The notes beneath the pieces are model-generated. The model saw only the letters and a program-made list of their open reading frames with translations. It was not told the origin of the DNA and did no database searches. The translations under genes and the position numbers were made by a program. A stretch of 54,281 nt of DNA from a virus. Within the stretch, counting starts at the first letter, position 1. The number at the start of each line of letters is the position of its first letter. Location of the stretch: positions 1 to 54,281 of IMG/VR virus record IMGVR_UViG_3300030294_000048. The stretch is one strand, 5' to 3'. Below, piece after piece: positions 206 to 8,045 of this stretch.

Positions 206-2095
206 TTAGTATTGTGTTTGTGGAAATTTTATTGAATCAGTAAGTAAACCTGTTTGGTCACAAAGATTATCAAAACTTAAATCACGATAAATATGTTTCT
301 TTTCACCAACTTTATATTCAATTTGAAACATATAATTACGAGCATTATAATTTCTTTCAACTCCTTGTTTCTTTAAAATAGTTTTTTGTCTTTCTTCATA
401 TTCACGACGATCTTTAACATCATATTTATCATAATATTGATCAGTTGTTATATAATCAGCACCTTTTCTTTTATCTCCTCCAACAATTATTATTGCTAAA
501 AATGATAATATGAAATAATTCATAAATTCTGTTTTACCAATAATGGCTTCACAATCATAAGCATCATTAATTGATTTTGCTGTATCTTGTTTAGATAATG
601 TTTCTTTTAAAACAACTCCAATTTCAGGTTGTTCTAAACGAACTTCATTAAGTTTTATTAAAGCTTTTTTAAGTTTAAAATGTTTTAATTTATCATATAA
701 ATAATAAAAATTATCATCTTCATCTTTAATATCTAATTCTTTGCTCCAATCTCGATTGAAACAAGTTCCGAGTATGTCGTAGAAATTTTTCAATAAAGCT
801 CCTAAAGTAACATTTTTTGAAATTTGATATTCCCAAGTTTGATCAGCTGTATTTTTAGCAATAATATCATAAATACCTTTAACATCTGATTCAATTATTT
901 GTATATATAACCACTGATTATTATCATCTTTTGAAATAAAATCAATCGCAAATATATTACTTTCATCATCAGTATAAGGTTTAGCTTTATATTCATGTGT
1001 TCCAACAATATTATTAATTACTTGCATTAATGGATTATTGGTTTTTCTTAATTCAAATTTTTTCAAAACAATTACATATCCTGAAACATAATATTCAACA
1101 ATTCTATCACCAATAAATTGATTAAATAATTCAATGCTTTCAAAATCTTTACTTGTAATTTCAAGAATTTTTTTTGCTCTTGATTCTTGCATAAAGATTA
1201 ATAAATTTCCTGTTGAATCATAATTTTCAGGAACAGAAATCATTATTCTTGTGCCTTTATTTACTTTTAATTTTTCAAAATCTGGTTTAAAAACAACACT
1301 AATTGCACCTAATTTTAAAGATGATCCTTTTAATTGAGTTTTATTTGTATTTCCAATAACCCTCGGATCACATTTCCGAGGAAAGATTAATCCTTTTGTT
1401 TTTTCTTTAACATATGATGCTATTGAATTTATTTGAGCTGGAAAATTTTCACCTTTAATACTAACAACTGTTTTAAAATAACCTGATTTATCTGTTTTTG
1501 TTGGTATTGCTTTAATATCTAAATCACTAATAGAAAATTCTGAACCATTAGGTATTTCAGATAAAGCTGATTGTATTTGTTCTTCAAGTTCAACAACATT
1601 AATATTTTCAGGTAATTCTTTACCAATAATTGATTCAATATTTTGTTTAACAATTTCGTTATGTGTTGAAAAATATTCTTGTTGAATTAAAACAGTTTTT
1701 TGTTTATTTATTGGTATAAGTTGTGGTTGTACTTGTGGCACAACTTCTTGAACTGATTTAATTTTATTTAAATCATTTATTTGTGAAATAATTTTTTCTT
1801 GATATTCTTCACCTATTGGTTTTGAAATTATTATTTCAGGAATTTGTTCTTGGATTTGTTGTGGAATAATTTCTTGTGGAATAAATTGAGCAACAACTTC
1901 AGAAATTAATTCAATAGTAGGTACTTGTTTATCTATTTGTTTTATTATAACATCTTCATCGAAAATTGATGTTTTTTTCTTTTTCTTATTTGCATTTCCA
2001 CTATATAAAATTGTACTAATATCAGGAATTAAATTTTTATCTTCAATACTGACATTTAATAAATCTTGAATACCTGCTTCGTTTAATTTTTTCAT
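206..2095 (-). CDS. Hypothetical structural-operon protein, 629 aa
   Basis: This is a complete frame with AT-rich codon use like its neighbours. The first ~40 residues hold a run of five lysines. Residues ~60-180 are low-complexity, rich in Ile, Gln, Pro and Glu with recurring PQ/PE patterns, which suggests an extended or coiled linker. The rest (~190-629) looks globular and mixed alpha/beta, with one hydrophobic stretch late in the protein (FILSFLAIIIVGG) that could be a buried strand or helix. The gene lies downstream of the tail tube and tail assembly genes, where a tape measure often sits, but it lacks the long alpha-helical repeats and membrane segments expected of one. I do not recognise the family. 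A virion role is inferred from the operon only. Confidence 0.65.
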   Translation of the reverse strand: MKKLNEAGIQDLLNVSIEDKNLIPDISTILYSGNANKKKKKTSIFDEDVIIKQIDKQVPTIELISEVVAQFIPQEIIPQQIQEQIPEIIISKPIGEEYQEKIISQINDLNKIKSVQEVVPQVQPQLIPINKQKTVLIQQEYFSTHNEIVKQNIESIIGKELPENINVVELEEQIQSALSEIPNGSEFSISDLDIKAIPTKTDKSGYFKTVVSIKGENFPAQINSIASYVKEKTKGLIFPRKCDPRVIGNTNKTQLKGSSLKLGAISVVFKPDFEKLKVNKGTRIMISVPENYDSTGNLLIFMQESRAKKILEITSKDFESIELFNQFIGDRIVEYYVSGYVIVLKKFELRKTNNPLMQVINNIVGTHEYKAKPYTDDESNIFAIDFISKDDNNQWLYIQIIESDVKGIYDIIAKNTADQTWEYQISKNVTLGALLKNFYDILGTCFNRDWSKELDIKDEDDNFYYLYDKLKHFKLKKALIKLNEVRLEQPEIGVVLKETLSKQDTAKSINDAYDCEAIIGKTEFMNYFILSFLAIIIVGGDKRKGADYITTDQYYDKYDVKDRREYEERQKTILKKQGVERNYNARNYMFQIEYKVGEKKHIYRDLSFDNLCDQTGLLTDSIKFPQTQY

Positions 2096-2168: not shown

Positions 2169-2562
2169 TTATTTTTTAGGCATTTTCATACCACTTAATT
2201 TTTGATTTTTCATCATTGATTTTGCATTACTCATAGATGAAGTAAATTGTTTTGAAGCTGATTCTTGAGGATTTTCAGTTGTTTCTTCATTTCCATTTTT
2301 TTCATTTAAAAATTCATAAAAATAAACCATATAATTATTAAAATACCAAAATGACATTTCATCAATATTTCTTTGATTATTTGAACTATTCATTGATATT
2401 AATGCACATGTTTTACCATATGATTCAAGATTTATTATTGAACTTGTGTAAATATAAGTTAATAAATCAATCTGAGGATAAAAATAACTGAAATTTAATT
2501 TTGTATGGAAATTATCAATCGAAATATCCTGTAGTATCTTCTTTGCTGACAAACATACTTTT
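2169..2562 (-). CDS. Frameshift-dependent C-terminal extension of the tail assembly chaperone
   Basis: This frame has no ATG that would include its clearly coding-like first part (residues around KLNFSYFYPQIDLLTYIY). The only upstream ATG, at 2627, lies inside the preceding gene in a stretch with codons atypical of this genome (CTG, CTC, AGG). It overlaps the 3' end of the 324-residue gene in the +1 frame. A +1 slip on AAA at 2562-2560 would append about 129 residues to the first 310 residues of that protein, giving a ~439-residue fusion. The tail of the product is polar and rich in Asn, Ser, Lys and Met. In tailed phages the gene before the tape measure is commonly expressed as a short and a frameshifted long chaperone (G/GT type), so I infer the same here. 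Independent translation from a rare start is the alternative. Confidence 0.5.
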
Positions 2563-3489
2563 CCAACCTCCTGGAAATCGAATTTGAGTCTCCTCCAATG
2601 ACCCACAAATAGGACAAACAGTTTCAATATAATCTAAATTATCTAATTTTAATTTATTTATTATTTCAAGATATGCTTTAAATCTTAAATCATCTTCTTG
2701 AAGTTTTTTAAATTTTTGAATCAATTCTTTAACAGATTCATTTCCTCTTTCGTATAAATATGGTGCTACAAGTAAAAATTGTTTATCATAAACTATTTTA
2801 TCTTCTTTATTTTCTCTGTCATTTTGACTATTGCGATAAACATTAACCACATATTTAAAAATTCTACCACTTATTTCAATTGTTGGAATTAAAAATTCAA
2901 TAGGTTCTTCAACCTTTGGCATTTTTAATGAAAATTTTCTGCCATCAAAAGAATTTATCAAATTTTTATTTAATTCTTTAAACAATAATTTGAAAGCATT
3001 TAATTCAATTCCAATTTGTTCTTTATGTATTGAACAAATAGTATCATATGTTATTGGACTTCCTGGAAGATAAAACTCTCTTAATAATAATAGAAAGAAA
3101 GTTCTATGAGCATCATTAATTTGACCTGATGAAATTTGATTATTTGTTTCAGAATCAAAAATAACGAAACATTTACGAATTAAATCTTCTATTGCGGCAA
3201 CAATAGCTGGTTTATCATTTTCGTCTATTGTTGAAAAATTAGCAACTTCTTTTGATGTTGGACAACGATAAGCAAAATTCCAAGTTTCAGGATATAAAAT
3301 ACCTTCTTGTGGCATATCAATTCTTTCAAGAATTTTAAAACCATCAACAATATTTGCATTTACTTTTTGGACATTTTCTTTTGTCATTATTGAATCTAAT
3401 GATTCATTATCAATTGTTGATTGTTTTGAATTATTTTCCAATTCACTTAAAGCTTTAAGTTCTTTTTCGTCATTATCTTTTTTATTCAT
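2515..3489 (-). CDS. 26: Tail assembly / baseplate hub protein, T4 gp26-like
   Basis: The protein has 324 residues. Residues ~55-200 show the pattern I associate with the T4 gp26-type base plate family: MPQEGILYP, then a short strand, a switch-like helix (PTSKEVANF), a helix ending LIRKCF, and a segment FFLLLLREFYLPG followed by a cysteine. The C-terminus carries one zinc-ribbon half, CPIC, at residues 292-295. Family members help assemble the baseplate hub or act as tail chaperones and are usually absent from the mature virion. The start overlaps the stop of the upstream 114-residue gene by 8 nt, indicating coupled translation. The 3' end is unusually GC-rich and overlaps another coding frame, with a slippery site at codon 310. 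Family call is moderately sure; exact equivalence to gp26 rather than gp51 is not. Confidence 0.6.
   Translation of the reverse strand: MNKKDNDEKELKALSELENNSKQSTIDNESLDSIMTKENVQKVNANIVDGFKILERIDMPQEGILYPETWNFAYRCPTSKEVANFSTIDENDKPAIVAAIEDLIRKCFVIFDSETNNQISSGQINDAHRTFFLLLLREFYLPGSPITYDTICSIHKEQIGIELNAFKLLFKELNKNLINSFDGRKFSLKMPKVEEPIEFLIPTIEISGRIFKYVVNVYRNSQNDRENKEDKIVYDKQFLLVAPYLYERGNESVKELIQKFKKLQEDDLRFKAYLEIINKLKLDNLDYIETVCPICGSLEETQIRFPGGWKSMFVSKEDTTGYFD
2558..2572 (-). promoter_or_regulatory. Candidate programmed +1 ribosomal frameshift site
   Basis: On the minus strand the order is AGGAGG, TTGG, then AAA-A-GT, with AAA as codon 310 of the 324-residue frame. tRNA-Lys on AAA can re-pair with AAA one base downstream, after which GTA TGT TTG continues in the overlapping frame. 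A strong anti-SD match 4 nt before the slip codon resembles the arrangement that drives +1 shifting in bacterial RF2 mRNA, where the spacing is 3 nt. AGGAGG is otherwise almost absent from translation starts in this genome. The product is inferred, not demonstrated. Confidence 0.45.
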
Positions 3490-3826
3490 TTTTATTATTT
3501 TTAAAGTATTGAAATAAATTATTTAATTTTTGTGGTTCATTATTTGAAATAGGATTATCTATTTTCTTATTTATGTTTTTATTAGATTCAATAAATTTTG
3601 ATTTTAGATTTTCAGAAAGTCTATTTTGTTTTTTAGTTTTCAAATACATTCCAGGATAATTATTAACATCATAAATATTAACCCCTGATTTATCTAACAT
3701 ATTTAAAATCAAAATTGATTCATCTCTATAAGATTTTAATTCTATTTCATCTAAAATTGTTGAGTGTGAAACAGATTCAATATCTGTTTCACTCTCAACA
3801 ATATCTTTATTTCTCTTAATAATCAT
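3482..3826 (-). CDS. Hypothetical protein, 114 aa
   Basis: A small, highly charged protein rich in Lys, Asn, Ser and Asp, with a serine/acidic N-terminal third and a basic, asparagine-rich C-terminal third. No signal peptide, membrane segment or motif is visible. It sits 1 nt after the tail tube gene, and its stop overlaps the start of the gp26-like gene by 8 nt, so all three are almost certainly co-translated. The position suggests a tail assembly accessory factor. No family is recognised. Confidence 0.65.
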   Translation of the reverse strand: MIIKRNKDIVESETDIESVSHSTILDEIELKSYRDESILILNMLDKSGVNIYDVNNYPGMYLKTKKQNRLSENLKSKFIESNKNINKKIDNPISNNEPQKLNNLFQYFKNNKNE

Positions 3827-3827
3827 T

Positions 3828-4412
3828 TTATACTAATCTTGGGTCATTAGTTACATCTGAAACATAATCAACATTAAATGTAACAGATAATTCAATCATT
3901 TCATGATTAGTATAATCAGCAGCTTGGTCATCAATATCGTTCATTGGAAAAACATGATGTCCCATACGTCTCCAATAAATAGTAGAATCTCTATTAAATT
4001 TTTCAACAACAATTGCAGCATCAGCATAATCTTTTTTTAAACTTTTTTCTCCTGTTAATGGATTAAATTTAAAGCGAGACCAAGCAACCATTTTATTATA
4101 AATAAATTGACGAGACTCATTATCTAAAAAATTAAAGAATTGTACTTCAACATCATAAAATGTTTCTTTTTCATTAGAATCATATCGAAATTTAGTTGTT
4201 TTATAACCTGCTTCAGTTACTCCTCCAGCTTTTTCAATAAATAAACCAGTTACAGATTTTATATATTCTCGAAGATCAGTATAATCTCCAAGTTTATCTT
4301 TTAATTTACCCATCAAAACAAAATGAGCATTAAAATTACTTGCTACTACTGGTTCGTATTTATTAACAGCCGCAGTTGAATTAGTAACATGTGGAAATGA
4401 AGTTGTTGCCAT
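3828..4412 (-). CDS. 19: Tail tube protein, T4 gp19-like
   Basis: The 194 residues match the size (T4 gp19 is about 160) and pattern of contractile-tail tube subunits: a flexible N-terminus (MATTSFPHVTNSTAA), a strand with NFNAHFVLMGKL, then 'YIKSVTGLFIEKAGGVTEAGYKT'-type sequence around residues 45-75 corresponding to the inner-barrel strands, and a C-terminal strand ELSVTFNVDYVSD. Subunits stack as hexameric rings to form the DNA-conducting tube inside the sheath. The gene lies one gene downstream of the sheath, close to the 18-19 order of T4. The leader is A/T-rich with no Shine-Dalgarno sequence. The family call is fairly sure from pattern and context. Confidence 0.72.
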   Translation of the reverse strand: MATTSFPHVTNSTAAVNKYEPVVASNFNAHFVLMGKLKDKLGDYTDLREYIKSVTGLFIEKAGGVTEAGYKTTKFRYDSNEKETFYDVEVQFFNFLDNESRQFIYNKMVAWSRFKFNPLTGEKSLKKDYADAAIVVEKFNRDSTIYWRRMGHHVFPMNDIDDQAADYTNHEMIELSVTFNVDYVSDVTNDPRLV

Positions 4413-4463
4413 AATATTTTCTTTTTATATATTTAACTTTAGTTTAAAATAATAATTTATTTA

Positions 4464-5720
4464 TTAAAATGAATTTTTGAATTTATTTGATTTATGTTGT
4501 TCAATAAGAACTTTTTCTGTTGAGGCCAATAAATTCATTGTTTTTGTGAAATAATTATTAATTACTTTTCTTAAACGTAAATTAAATTCAGTTTCAGCAC
4601 CTTTTATAATATGTAACATATCAACAGCTGAATTAAGTCTAATTGGGTATGTGTAAATATCTACTTTTTTTGGATCAATAATAAAATTATTGAAAATTTG
4701 AGAATATTCACTACCTTCAAAACCTGATATTGGTTCTTGATTTTTATTTAAATTATCTTTACCAATAGCAATTTTTGATGATAAAGATGAACTTGAAATA
4801 GCTGAAAATAATGTTTTGGTTGCAGCAAGATAATCATTAAAACTATTGCGATTTATGTATTGGATAGAATATTGGTTTGATGATATATAGTTATGTATTA
4901 ATAACATACAATCAAAAATCAATGTTTGAATATCGGGAATTAATTTTTTCAATACATCAATACTTCTATACATTGGATTAAGTTGATTTTGAGTTATGAT
5001 TTGATTAATTAAATCCATTTCAAAATTATCTTCAATAGTATACACATTGTCAATATTTGTAAGTTCTAAAATTTCTTTATCAAGATATTCTGTAATTGCT
5101 GTATAAGCATTATCAAGATGATAACTATATCCCCAACTTTTATTATTTTTTGCTAAAATTTCTCTTAAACTTTCAAATAATCTTTTATTTTCAATTGCAT
5201 TAATAACATTTACTTCTTTCGTATTTGTTTTTGAAACATTAATTTTTTTGAAATCAATATTTTCATTTTCAAATAAATCCTGAGTATTTTTACCAAAACC
5301 TATTGTATTTGCAACTTTTTTGAAATTATTATCTCTATCATTAAGTAATAGAATATAACAAATTATTTCAATAAGTGTTGGTGTATCAACTGCAATGCCA
5401 CAATTAATTTCAATTGCTTTAAACATTTCATCAGTAATACGTGCACGTGATTCAATATCATTTGTTGGTTCAACAATTTTTTTCGATAATTTAACAATCG
5501 TTTCTTTAAAATTTGTTAAATTAAAAGTATTTGATGTTGGATTAATAAAATCAATAAAATTTTCATTAATTTTTTTTAAATCACCATTATTCGATATTGA
5601 AAAATTTTCATAGAGTTTATTAACTCTTTCTTTTGATAATCCAGTGGAATTGACCATCTCATTAATGAGATGGTCTTTTCCTGTTGAATTAATGTTTTTT
5701 ATTTCTGAAAAATTTATCAT
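4464..5720 (-). CDS. Hypothetical structural-operon protein between sheath and tube, 418 aa
   Basis: A mostly alpha-helical, soluble-looking protein with an Asn/Lys/Ile-rich composition. A hydrophobic helix pair lies around residues 108-125 (PTLIEIICYILLL) and a serine run around residue 305 (ISSSSLSSK). Codons 16-23 contain a perfect inverted repeat flanked by two near-identical NSTG-encoding sequences. T4 has no gene between sheath and tube, so this is an insertion relative to that order. It could be a tail component, a sheath-assembly factor or, less likely, a packaging or connector protein. I do not recognise it; only its virion-operon membership is supported. Confidence 0.65.
   Translation of the reverse strand: MINFSEIKNINSTGKDHLINEMVNSTGLSKERVNKLYENFSISNNGDLKKINENFIDFINPTSNTFNLTNFKETIVKLSKKIVEPTNDIESRARITDEMFKAIEINCGIAVDTPTLIEIICYILLLNDRDNNFKKVANTIGFGKNTQDLFENENIDFKKINVSKTNTKEVNVINAIENKRLFESLREILAKNNKSWGYSYHLDNAYTAITEYLDKEILELTNIDNVYTIEDNFEMDLINQIITQNQLNPMYRSIDVLKKLIPDIQTLIFDCMLLIHNYISSNQYSIQYINRNSFNDYLAATKTLFSAISSSSLSSKIAIGKDNLNKNQEPISGFEGSEYSQIFNNFIIDPKKVDIYTYPIRLNSAVDMLHIIKGAETEFNLRLRKVINNYFTKTMNLLASTEKVLIEQHKSNKFKNSF
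5652..5675. repeat. Perfect 24-bp inverted repeat within a coding sequence
   Basis: Arms GACCATCTC (5652-5660) and GAGATGGTC (5667-5675) are separated by ATTAAT, itself a palindrome, so all 24 bases are symmetric. This is GC-rich for the genome. On the minus strand it lies 45-69 nt into the 418-residue gene and is bracketed by AATTC-ACAGGA-like direct repeats. It could fold as an mRNA hairpin near the start of the gene or be a protein-binding site. Confidence 0.8.
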
Positions 5721-5732
5721 ATTCTTTTTTAA

Positions 5733-8045
5733 TTAGTTAATTTTTAAATCAAACACAACTTTATCTAAAGCATCAACAGCAGTATATTCAATATGAACTA
5801 ATTTAATTTTATTTTTAGCTATTTCAGGAGTATTATTTGCTGCATCACATTGAACAATAATATTAGGATAAACTGCTCCAGCAAGTACTAAATTTGTCAT
5901 AAAATTAGTTGCTTCTGTTTCTGTTCTTAAATAATCTGCATAATTACCTTTTTTGAATGCTTCTGATTTTGAAAGGTTATATAATGATTCTTTAATAAAA
6001 CAAAGTAATTCAGAATTATGTATTTGTTGTAAAGAAGTTTTAGCTTTTTGTCCAGTTAAATTCTGATAAATTGTATTTCCTCCACCAAAATTAATAATTG
6101 GATTATAACCAAATTTTTCACATGAAACACGATCATCATCATCAATAACTATTTCTAATTCACTAATTCCATCCAAATATCCAGTTGAATTAGCTAAAAC
6201 ATCAAATGGTAATGTTTTTGTATAAAATAGATTTGAAACTAATCCAGATACTGGACGAGTTACTGAACCAACAATATTTCCAGGACCAAAATAGAAACAC
6301 ATATATGCTCCTGTTATGAATTTAGATAATAAAATACTTGAATAAATTTTATTTCCACCTTCAGGAACATAATTCCAATCAAAACTTTCTTCAGGACTAA
6401 CTTTAAATAATGGATTAGTTGAATTTTGTAAATCTTCAATAAATGGTTCATTTAAAATTGCACGAACAAATTTATTTCCATCATCTAAATCAACCATTAA
6501 TTGTCCAAATTGATATTTATAATTAGGTTCAACAAATGATTTAAAACAATCAATAACATAACGTATTCCTGTTGTTGATTTAATTCCTTTTGTAATACCT
6601 AAACTATTAATAACATCAAGAATTTCTTTTTGTTTAGTTGCTGTTCCGTCAGTAAATTGAGTTAACCGTGGTTTATAACTAATTAATTCAAAAGGTTTTA
6701 AAATTCCAATTTTTGTGAATGAATTTTCTTTAACAACACTAAATACACCGAGAGTTTCAACATATTTAATTAAACCTGAACAAGTATATTTTACTTCAGT
6801 AAAAGTTGAAGTACCAATTACTTTTTTATTGTTTAATATATCAATATTTTTTATTACAACTAATTTATTGTCAATACTTTGAATAAAATCACCAATTCTT
6901 AAACCTTGTTCAAATGAACTTTTAAATGAATATTCATCAATTTTTTCACAACCATAAGTTATTAAATTTGCTGTTACTGGAACAACATTATCGGTTTCAG
7001 TAAGTAATGGATAAATTGCAACTGATTTAGTTAAAATTTGTGGTACAACGTGTGATAATAAATAATTTGAAGTTTCAATAATTTTTGTTTCTGTTCCTTC
7101 AAAAAATTCATATCCTTTCATATCTAATAAGAATTTATTATCTATTTCAAATAATGAATCATTAATATATGAAATTATTCCTGTTGACATATATTTTTGA
7201 TTCATTAATGAATCAATAGATATATTGACAGTATTTTCTGATAATAAATTTGGTATTAATGAACCAGTAAATTTTTGTTGAAATCCTGATTCAGGAATTG
7301 CTATTAATTCATTAATACGTGTTAAATCAAGATTACCATTATTGTCAAACATTTGACCATAATATTGATTAACATTTGCTGTTACTCCAAATTTATTTGC
7401 AAAAACATATACATTTATGAAAGTATCTTTCAATAACATATTGAAATCAAGAGCAGGATATTCATCAATTTCTAAAATAGAATTAGCTAATGATTTTTCT
7501 CCTTCAGATGTTAATGTTAAAACATCAGCACTTGTTGCAATAGTTGCAATAATAGTTAAATCAGTATTTCCAATATTTCCAAAATTCAATAATTGATTTT
7601 TTTCTATACCGAACAAATTAACAATATTTTTAGCTTGTTGATTCCAAAAACCATTTGTATTAAATAATTTAGAATATTCTACAGTTGCTGAATCATGAAC
7701 TGTTATGTTTGGATTAATTCCAAGAATACCAGTAGTATCTTCAGAAGTAAATAAACGTAAATTTACTACTGAAATTGGACCAACTTTCAAAGCTTCTAAA
7801 CATGTCGATATGGAAAAATTTCCTCTTTTTTCTTGTAAACGTGTACCTCGACCAAATATTGAAACAAAACCAGCATTATCTCCTTTTGCAAATTTAAAAA
7901 GCATATTTGCTGGGCCTTTTTCAGTATTTATGAACAGTAATCTCATTTTAGATTCTGCTTCAATAGTAGCAACTTGTGAACTATCTGAAACTATGAAGAA
8001 AGTTCCTGCTGCTTTTGATAAAATTTGACTTAATTTGGCATCCAT
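5733..8045 (-). CDS. 18: Contractile tail sheath protein, T4 gp18-like
   Basis: The 770 residues are somewhat longer than T4 gp18 (659). The N-terminus has the 'VSDSSQVATIEAESKMRLLF' start and repeated glycine-bounded strands typical of sheath proteins. The C-terminal ~170 residues resemble the conserved sheath core: a G-x-NTIYQ segment, a helix rich in IHNSELLCFIKESLYNLSK, and final beta strands HIEYTAVDALDKVVFDLKI that form the inter-subunit handshake in known sheaths. The extra central sequence probably forms surface-exposed domains. The subunits polymerise around the tube and contract to drive DNA delivery. The A-rich leader, gene size and the nearby tube gene support the call. Confidence 0.78.
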   Translation of the reverse strand: MDAKLSQILSKAAGTFFIVSDSSQVATIEAESKMRLLFINTEKGPANMLFKFAKGDNAGFVSIFGRGTRLQEKRGNFSISTCLEALKVGPISVVNLRLFTSEDTTGILGINPNITVHDSATVEYSKLFNTNGFWNQQAKNIVNLFGIEKNQLLNFGNIGNTDLTIIATIATSADVLTLTSEGEKSLANSILEIDEYPALDFNMLLKDTFINVYVFANKFGVTANVNQYYGQMFDNNGNLDLTRINELIAIPESGFQQKFTGSLIPNLLSENTVNISIDSLMNQKYMSTGIISYINDSLFEIDNKFLLDMKGYEFFEGTETKIIETSNYLLSHVVPQILTKSVAIYPLLTETDNVVPVTANLITYGCEKIDEYSFKSSFEQGLRIGDFIQSIDNKLVVIKNIDILNNKKVIGTSTFTEVKYTCSGLIKYVETLGVFSVVKENSFTKIGILKPFELISYKPRLTQFTDGTATKQKEILDVINSLGITKGIKSTTGIRYVIDCFKSFVEPNYKYQFGQLMVDLDDGNKFVRAILNEPFIEDLQNSTNPLFKVSPEESFDWNYVPEGGNKIYSSILLSKFITGAYMCFYFGPGNIVGSVTRPVSGLVSNLFYTKTLPFDVLANSTGYLDGISELEIVIDDDDRVSCEKFGYNPIINFGGGNTIYQNLTGQKAKTSLQQIHNSELLCFIKESLYNLSKSEAFKKGNYADYLRTETEATNFMTNLVLAGAVYPNIIVQCDAANNTPEIAKNKIKLVHIEYTAVDALDKVVFDLKIN

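Follow-up and report, generated by a model that had tools for sequence, protein, structure and literature searches.

A gp26-type tail assembly gene of T4-type phages with a probable +1 frameshift at UUU_C into a gp51-like extension

The window (the whole stretch of 54,281 nt analysed, IMG/VR virus record IMGVR_UViG_3300030294_000048) carries on its minus strand a gene whose end overlaps a second open reading frame. The features of the locus are listed below; clades A and B are two groups of relatives, and L numbers denote individual relatives.

2515–3489, minus strand: frame-0 gene encoding the short product (ATG at 3489, TGA at 2515, 324 aa)
2169–2573, minus strand: +1-frame extension of 134 codons and a stop, with a gp51-like C-terminal domain, QEVGKVCLSAKKILQDISIDN...KMPKK, open in all relatives
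2574–2577, minus strand: proposed slip site UUU_C at Phe305 (mRNA CGA UUU CCA), where the dual-frame constraint starts in clades A and B
2585–2605, minus strand: candidate 5' hairpin UGGGUC(AUUGGAGGA)GACUCA, 6 bp, ending 7 nt upstream of UUU_C and carrying GGAGG in its loop
2592–2596, minus strand: GGAGG in place of the conserved GAGG loop element, ending 14 nt before UUU (17 nt in most relatives)
2567–2572, minus strand: AGGAGG within Pro-Gly-Gly codons, not conserved beyond the closest relative
2559–2562, minus strand: AAA_A, found also in L002, L013 and L028/L031, absent in clades A and B and not the start of dual coding there
3828–4412, minus strand: probable tail tube gene, upstream (phrog_32623; phrog_45 tail tube, E = 0.0012)
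5733–8045, minus strand: tail sheath gene, upstream (phrog_34521 tail sheath, E = 1.4e-98)

The +1 frame has no stop codon from 2633 to the TAA at 2169. It overlaps the frame-0 gene by 116 nt and continues for 115 codons beyond it; the only start codons of this frame in or near the overlap are TTG, with no ATG. A preliminary description of this DNA, made from the sequence alone, had noted an overlap of about 100 nt, a second frame with no sensible start and a fusion of about 439 residues, and the present analysis agrees with it on each of these points (the computed fusion is 439 aa). The stretch had also been called GC-rich, which is true in a relative sense only (33.6% at 2501–2640 versus 23.3% across the window). 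Among 86 other frame-shifted readings over the gene ends of the window none shows both a 50-nt overlap and 50 downstream codons. Because of this control, and because the +1 ORF recurs in every related locus examined, a chance origin is very unlikely and the overlap is genuine.

Relatives were collected by tblastn and by scans of contigs. The gene is present in Tenacibaculum phages PTm1, PTm5 and pT24, in Chryseobacterium phages MA9V-1 and MA9V-2, in Prevotella Lak phages, in several huge uncultured phages and in more than 100 IMG/VR contigs, the identity to the window protein being mostly 18–25%. A +1-frame ORF runs over the frame-0 stop in 109/109 loci (about ten lineages, hence not 109 independent events), always in +1 and never in +2, and extends at least 51 codons past the stop. 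In the Lak phages L007 and L009 the extension is open only when TAG is read as an amino acid (Gln), and frameshifting and stop-codon recoding would coincide there in one gene. No phage match was obtained by tblastn with the +1 product of the window, and a search for the signal of the window in bacterial and archaeal genomes gave no match.

The frame-0 family aligns with the T4-type gp26/gp51 set over nearly the full length (hhalign, 97.5%, E = 5e-12), which bears out the earlier designation of the gene as gp26-type. The relative L005 scores above the PF12322 (T4_baseplate) cut-off (29.4 versus 24.5 bits) and phrog_150 is matched by 4/11 family members; the window protein and L002 have no direct Pfam match to gp26. 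Two Cys-pair (zinc-ribbon-like) regions are found in the frame-0 protein. The structure predicted by AlphaFold for the window protein (pLDDT 78) resembles baseplate hub proteins of T4-type phages in BFVD, with E-values from 4e-9 to 1e-3, and its comparison with the PDB gave no significant match. As judged from the profile matches, the short product is a member of the T4 gp26/gp51 family (PF12322, phrog_150), and phrog_36717 ('unknown function'), which is this short product, can be named a gp26-type tail/hub assembly chaperone.

The +1 products of L003 and L005 match phrog_634 'baseplate hub assembly catalyst' (E = 1.9e-6 and 8.7e-4, respectively), and the +1 products as a group match the set of −1 and gp51 C-terminal sequences (hhalign, 94.7%, E = 6e-8). 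These matches indicate homology of the +1 extension with the C-terminal part of T4 gp51 and with the −1 products, described below, of further T4-type phages. The predicted fold of the extension alone is poor (pLDDT 49). In T4 itself gp26 and gp51 are paralogs of one family, gp51 being the form with an extra C-terminus. The +1 products of the window and L002 have in addition about 35 residues ahead of the shared domain that are missing from other relatives.

Selection on both frames was tested directly in two well-sampled clades, A (around LR756502) and B (around L003). The codon identity among amino-acid-identical pairs is 0.55 (A) and 0.52 (B) for the whole gene, and it reaches 0.935 and 0.851, respectively, between TTT and the frame-0 stop; the maximum over upstream segments of equal length (~220 per clade) is 0.596 in clade A and 0.623 in clade B. 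In both clades the variable base upstream of this block is the third base of frame 0, inside the block all three codon positions are constrained, and downstream of the frame-0 stop variability moves to the third position of the +1 codons. The block of codon identity taken together with the variability per position therefore argues that the +1 ORF is a translated protein and that the overlap is read in both frames from TTT on. Codon statistics of the two frames and conservation of both frames among relatives had been named earlier as ways of checking the proposal; the former reveal selection on both frames over the overlap in clades A and B, and the latter holds for the downstream frame in all 109 loci processed. 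The only close relative of the window is L002, and the data for this pair are consistent with dual coding without being decisive.

The block of dual constraint begins at a distinct sequence. An in-frame TTT followed by C is found in 62/62 distinct overlaps, the background being 0.0067 per codon. Six lineages have UUU_C at one and the same codon of the alignment (window with L002, clade A with L015, clade B, the L005/L028 group, pT24 and Lak); its positions in PTm1 and the Chryseobacterium phages are different, and it could be due to chance there. At this site the P-site tRNA-Phe would slip from UUU to UUC (+1), so that pairing stays good. The A-site codons among relatives are CCA, CCG, CGC, CCC and CAA, with no stop codon. 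The codon after UUU in clade B is CGC in 20/24 sequences (0.72 per 1000 codons, as compared to 26.5 per 1000 for the usual Arg codon AGA) and in clade A it is CCC (1.12 per 1000 codons); both choices retain the C and place a rare codon in the A site, which may aid the slip in these two clades. CCA, the A-site codon of the window, is common. The +1 site of influenza PA-X is UUU_CGU. The proposed site resembles it in the P-site slip from UUU to UUC and, in clade B, in the sequence UUU_CGC with its rare A-site codon; it differs in the position of the hairpin, which is upstream here, and in the CCA of the window, which is not rare, and the two sites do not share common descent. The junction predicted from the slip at UUU_C in the window is ...IRF-QEVGK....

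The only other strongly conserved silent positions in the two clades are found five codons before TTT, in GAG GAG GTC (A) and TGC NGT GCN GAG GTC (B). The mRNA can form there a hairpin, GUG[U/C]GG(UGAGGAGGU)CC[A/G]CAC in clade A and GC[A/G]GUG(CUGAGGU)CAC[U/C]GC in clade B, whose 3' strand ends ~10 nt before UUU. Standard pairs occupy 92.7% (A) and 100% (B) of the cells, and sliding the partner by 1–3 columns lowers this value to 18–77%. Compensatory changes with G-U intermediates are observed in two pairs in clade A and in one pair in clade B. The covariation exceeds that in 500/500 shuffles in clade A and in all but 5 in clade B, where it should be kept in mind that the shuffles do not control for kinship. 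The hairpin is kept despite other sequences in L028, L031, L088 and L124. L088–L092 and L007 have lost the first cysteine, or both, of the C-terminal CxxC pair, and in the L088 group the mRNA hairpin at the place of the lost cysteine is maintained by compensatory changes. In the window the hairpin is weak (−5.7 kcal/mol, 140/200 shuffles being equally good) and L002 favours another register of it; we infer its role in the window from the relatives. A 3' stimulatory structure is unsupported, with z-scores from −1.6 to +1.2 in 12 representatives. A possible pseudoknot between the GAGG loop and a downstream CCUC was spotted by eye in clade A only. The upstream hairpin is probably a stimulator of the slip: with its GAGG loop it would re-form behind the ribosome at the mRNA exit and would resist backward movement or drive forward movement.

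The preliminary description had placed the slip at AAA_A, with AGGAGG 4 nt ahead of it as a stimulator in an RF2-like arrangement. Both elements are indeed present (2572–2567 and 2562–2559). A +1 shift at AAA_A stimulated by AGGAGG in the small clade of the window would give the junction IRFPGGWK-VC, and it is compatible with AAA_A and GGGAGG in L002, with AAA_A at the same codon in L013 and L028/L031, and with the single change between UUU_C and AAA_A that separates the window from L002, which is silent in frame 0 and converts a +1 residue from Q to R. However, AAA_A is absent from L005 as well as from clades A and B, whereas UUU_C is common to all, and the dual-frame selection in these clades starts upstream, at UUU_C. 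AGGAGG coincides with the codons for a conserved Pro-Gly-Gly and is not conserved next to AAA_A. Neither element is thus general among relatives, and the pair was rejected as a general signal since dual coding begins upstream of it. Shine-Dalgarno sequences are, furthermore, hardly used by this phage. AGGAG or GGAGG is found at most 20 nt upstream of the start in only 1/44 genes of the window, and a Shine-Dalgarno mechanism of the RF2 type is therefore a poor prior. We consider a slip at AAA_A unlikely to explain the locus, though AAA_A may conceivably act as an additional or local site in the window/L002 pair.

The +1 site of E. coli RF2 (prfB) consists of an A-site stop codon and a Shine-Dalgarno element ~3 nt from the slip codon. 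The signal at UUU_C shares with it the direction of the shift and an upstream element of the GAGG type, and differs from it in having no A-site stop and in the location of GAGG, which lies within a hairpin loop at a distance of 14–17 nt. This spacing and location led us to drop GAGG as a simple Shine-Dalgarno element of the RF2 kind. A 5' hairpin also plays a role in the bypassing of T4 gene 60. There, as proposed here, the ribosome moves forward on a phage mRNA (PMC5009743), by a 50-nt hop in contrast to the 1-nt shift at UUU_C.

Three further readings of the overlap should be weighed. The gp51-like ORF may be a second, overlapping gene which is translated by coupled initiation at a TTG, or at an ATG in the phages that have one, with no fusion being made. 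This would agree with an ATG 10–11 codons past UUU_C in clade A, a TTG at 13 codons in clade B, an ATG right after the gp26 stop in P-SSM2-like phages, and the separate gene for gp51 in T4. But the constraint on the +1 frame starts at UUU_C, ahead of the candidate starts of clades A and B; the +1 frame has no ATG, GTG or TTG for 25 codons past the slip site in L002, L005, L028, L015, L011 and Lak; in S-P4 and S-RIM2 no usual start codon precedes the midpoint of the domain; and two separate genes would leave the retention of UUU_C and the hairpin without purpose. Coupling from an own start is accordingly regarded as quite improbable. Entry into the +1 frame by a −2 shift at downstream U-runs finds a precedent in phage Mu (PMC5009743) and possible sites in several relatives, which have AUU UUC or CUU UUC 7–9 codons past UUU_C. 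The window, L002, L013 and L028 have no such sites, and the −2 shift, which we rate as highly improbable, was dropped once the start of the dual-frame constraint had been located upstream of them. For an error of sequencing or assembly, or for gene decay, no supporting point was found; the recurrence of this overlap across 109 independent contigs and isolate genomes, with purifying selection in both frames, refutes it and leaves it a negligible probability.

The reading that we prefer, and hold to be very likely, is that one tail-assembly-chaperone gene gives two proteins by a +1 slip at UUU_C, a frameshift of the G/GT type in the T4 lineage. Most ribosomes would stay in frame 0 and produce the short gp26-like protein, and a fraction of them would slip at UUU_C and produce the 439-aa fusion, which adds a helical gp51-like domain; both the occurrence of the shift and its rate are inferred. 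The programmed frameshift with a net shift of +1 suggested in the preliminary description is thus supported at the sequence level by the dual-frame selection and by the +1 ORF present in all 109 loci.

A similar arrangement in the −1 frame is found in other T4-type phages. A gp51-like ORF in the −1 frame is present in P-SSM2, S-B43, S-P4, S-RIM2, S-WAM1, Ochrobactrum phage OC, Vibrio phage ValKK3, Rhizobium phage Y68 and AF3, where it comes after U UUU UU(C/U/G), three codons before the gp26 stop; in Vibrio phage D510 the gp51-like ORF follows CUU UUC. The heptamer UUUUUUC is found in 80/80 P-SSM2-like contigs. Given the ATG just after the gp26 stop in these phages, coupled initiation is possible in them. 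The 'gp51' annotated in S-P4 and S-RIM2 is a fragment that begins inside the domain, and more generally the published 'gp51' of cyanophages and their relatives (L017–L026, L134–L213) is often a fragment from an internal ATG or is missing. No joined gp26/gp51 gene was found among the annotated records fetched. The locus studied here is like cyanophage gp51 in that the +1 extensions match phrog_634 (L003, L005), and unlike it in that the cyanophage ORF is in the −1 frame after UUUUUUC and appears in annotations as a gene of its own, which is often truncated. Cyanophages, Vibrio ValKK3-like, Ochrobactrum and Rhizobium phages would make the same pair of proteins by −1 slippage at the U-run.

In T4 (L010) gp26 (3303–3929, minus strand) and gp51 (3980–4729, plus strand) are separate genes on opposite strands, in contrast to the single overlapping locus described here. 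The likeness is in the proteins: gp26 matches the short product, and gp51 is composed of a gp26-like part and the domain of the +1 extension. T4 would thus make the same pair from two paralogous genes, 26 and 51. T4 gene 26 ends with GAG TTC TTT GAG and has no slippery run; this end resembles a U-run that lost its slipperiness. The simplest history suggested by these comparisons would be an ancestral frameshifted gene that was kept in the −1 or +1 form and was replaced by duplication in the branch of T4.

Frameshifts in tail assembly chaperone genes, lambda G/GT and P2 E/E+E', were reportedly described by Xu, Hendrix and Duda in 2004, and a review of them is available (PMC5009743). The present locus is similar to both systems in combining, here at the level of sequence, a short protein with a frameshifted longer form that has an extra C-terminal domain, in following a (here probable) tail tube gene, and in being conserved in distant phages with varying slip sequence and direction. 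The gene that comes next in the window (206–2095) gave no match and is the last before the contig end; in MA9V-2 the following long gene is similar to a tape measure family (E = 9.6e-7). The differences from lambda are that the family is that of T4 gp26/gp51 (PF12322) and not of G, that the signal is UUU_C with a 5' hairpin, and that the lineage has been termed an exception: a 2016 review describes frameshifting of the G/GT type as broadly conserved among long-tailed phages 'except T4' (PMC5009743). The HK97 chaperone (2ob9) ranked second in the Foldseek comparison with the predicted fold, a match that is not significant (E = 2.0, probability 0.08). In lambda the short protein attaches to the tape measure, and tube subunits are bound by the part that the frameshift adds (PMC5009743). 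T4 gp26 and gp51 are counted among the hub assembly chaperones, and gp51 is not found in the particle (PMC3004832). By analogy, a chaperone pair made in a fixed ratio is the most likely function: the tape measure would be covered by the short product, and subunits of the tail tube or of the hub would be brought in by the long one.

Frameshifted tail chaperones as such are known. A frameshift in the gp26/gp51 family and the T4 lineage, or one with a UUU_C/5'-hairpin signal, is new within the literature covered: searches of open-licence papers yielded no account of frameshifting in gp26/gp51, in line with the earlier statement that none was known for a gp26-type gene. What the preliminary description had missed is the wide distribution of the locus and its apparent place as the equivalent, in the T4 lineage, of the known G/GT system. 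With moderate confidence we propose that gp26/gp51 serves all of the T4-type lineage as its G/GT chaperone system, in a −1 U-run form or a +1 UUU_C/hairpin form, and that the branch of T4 switched to duplication. The preferred reading, if right, also provides a conserved +1 signal that is preceded by a hairpin, as well as natural +1 and −1 solutions within one gene, and a correction of the gp26/gp51 annotations sampled here would follow from it. If the proposal is true, the T4-type lineage has G/GT frameshifting too, T4 gp26 and gp51 are the split short and long forms, and the gene duplication in the branch of T4 would explain its apparent exception. The function of the T4 hub chaperones gp26 and gp51, the roles of which have long been unclear, would then be directly testable.
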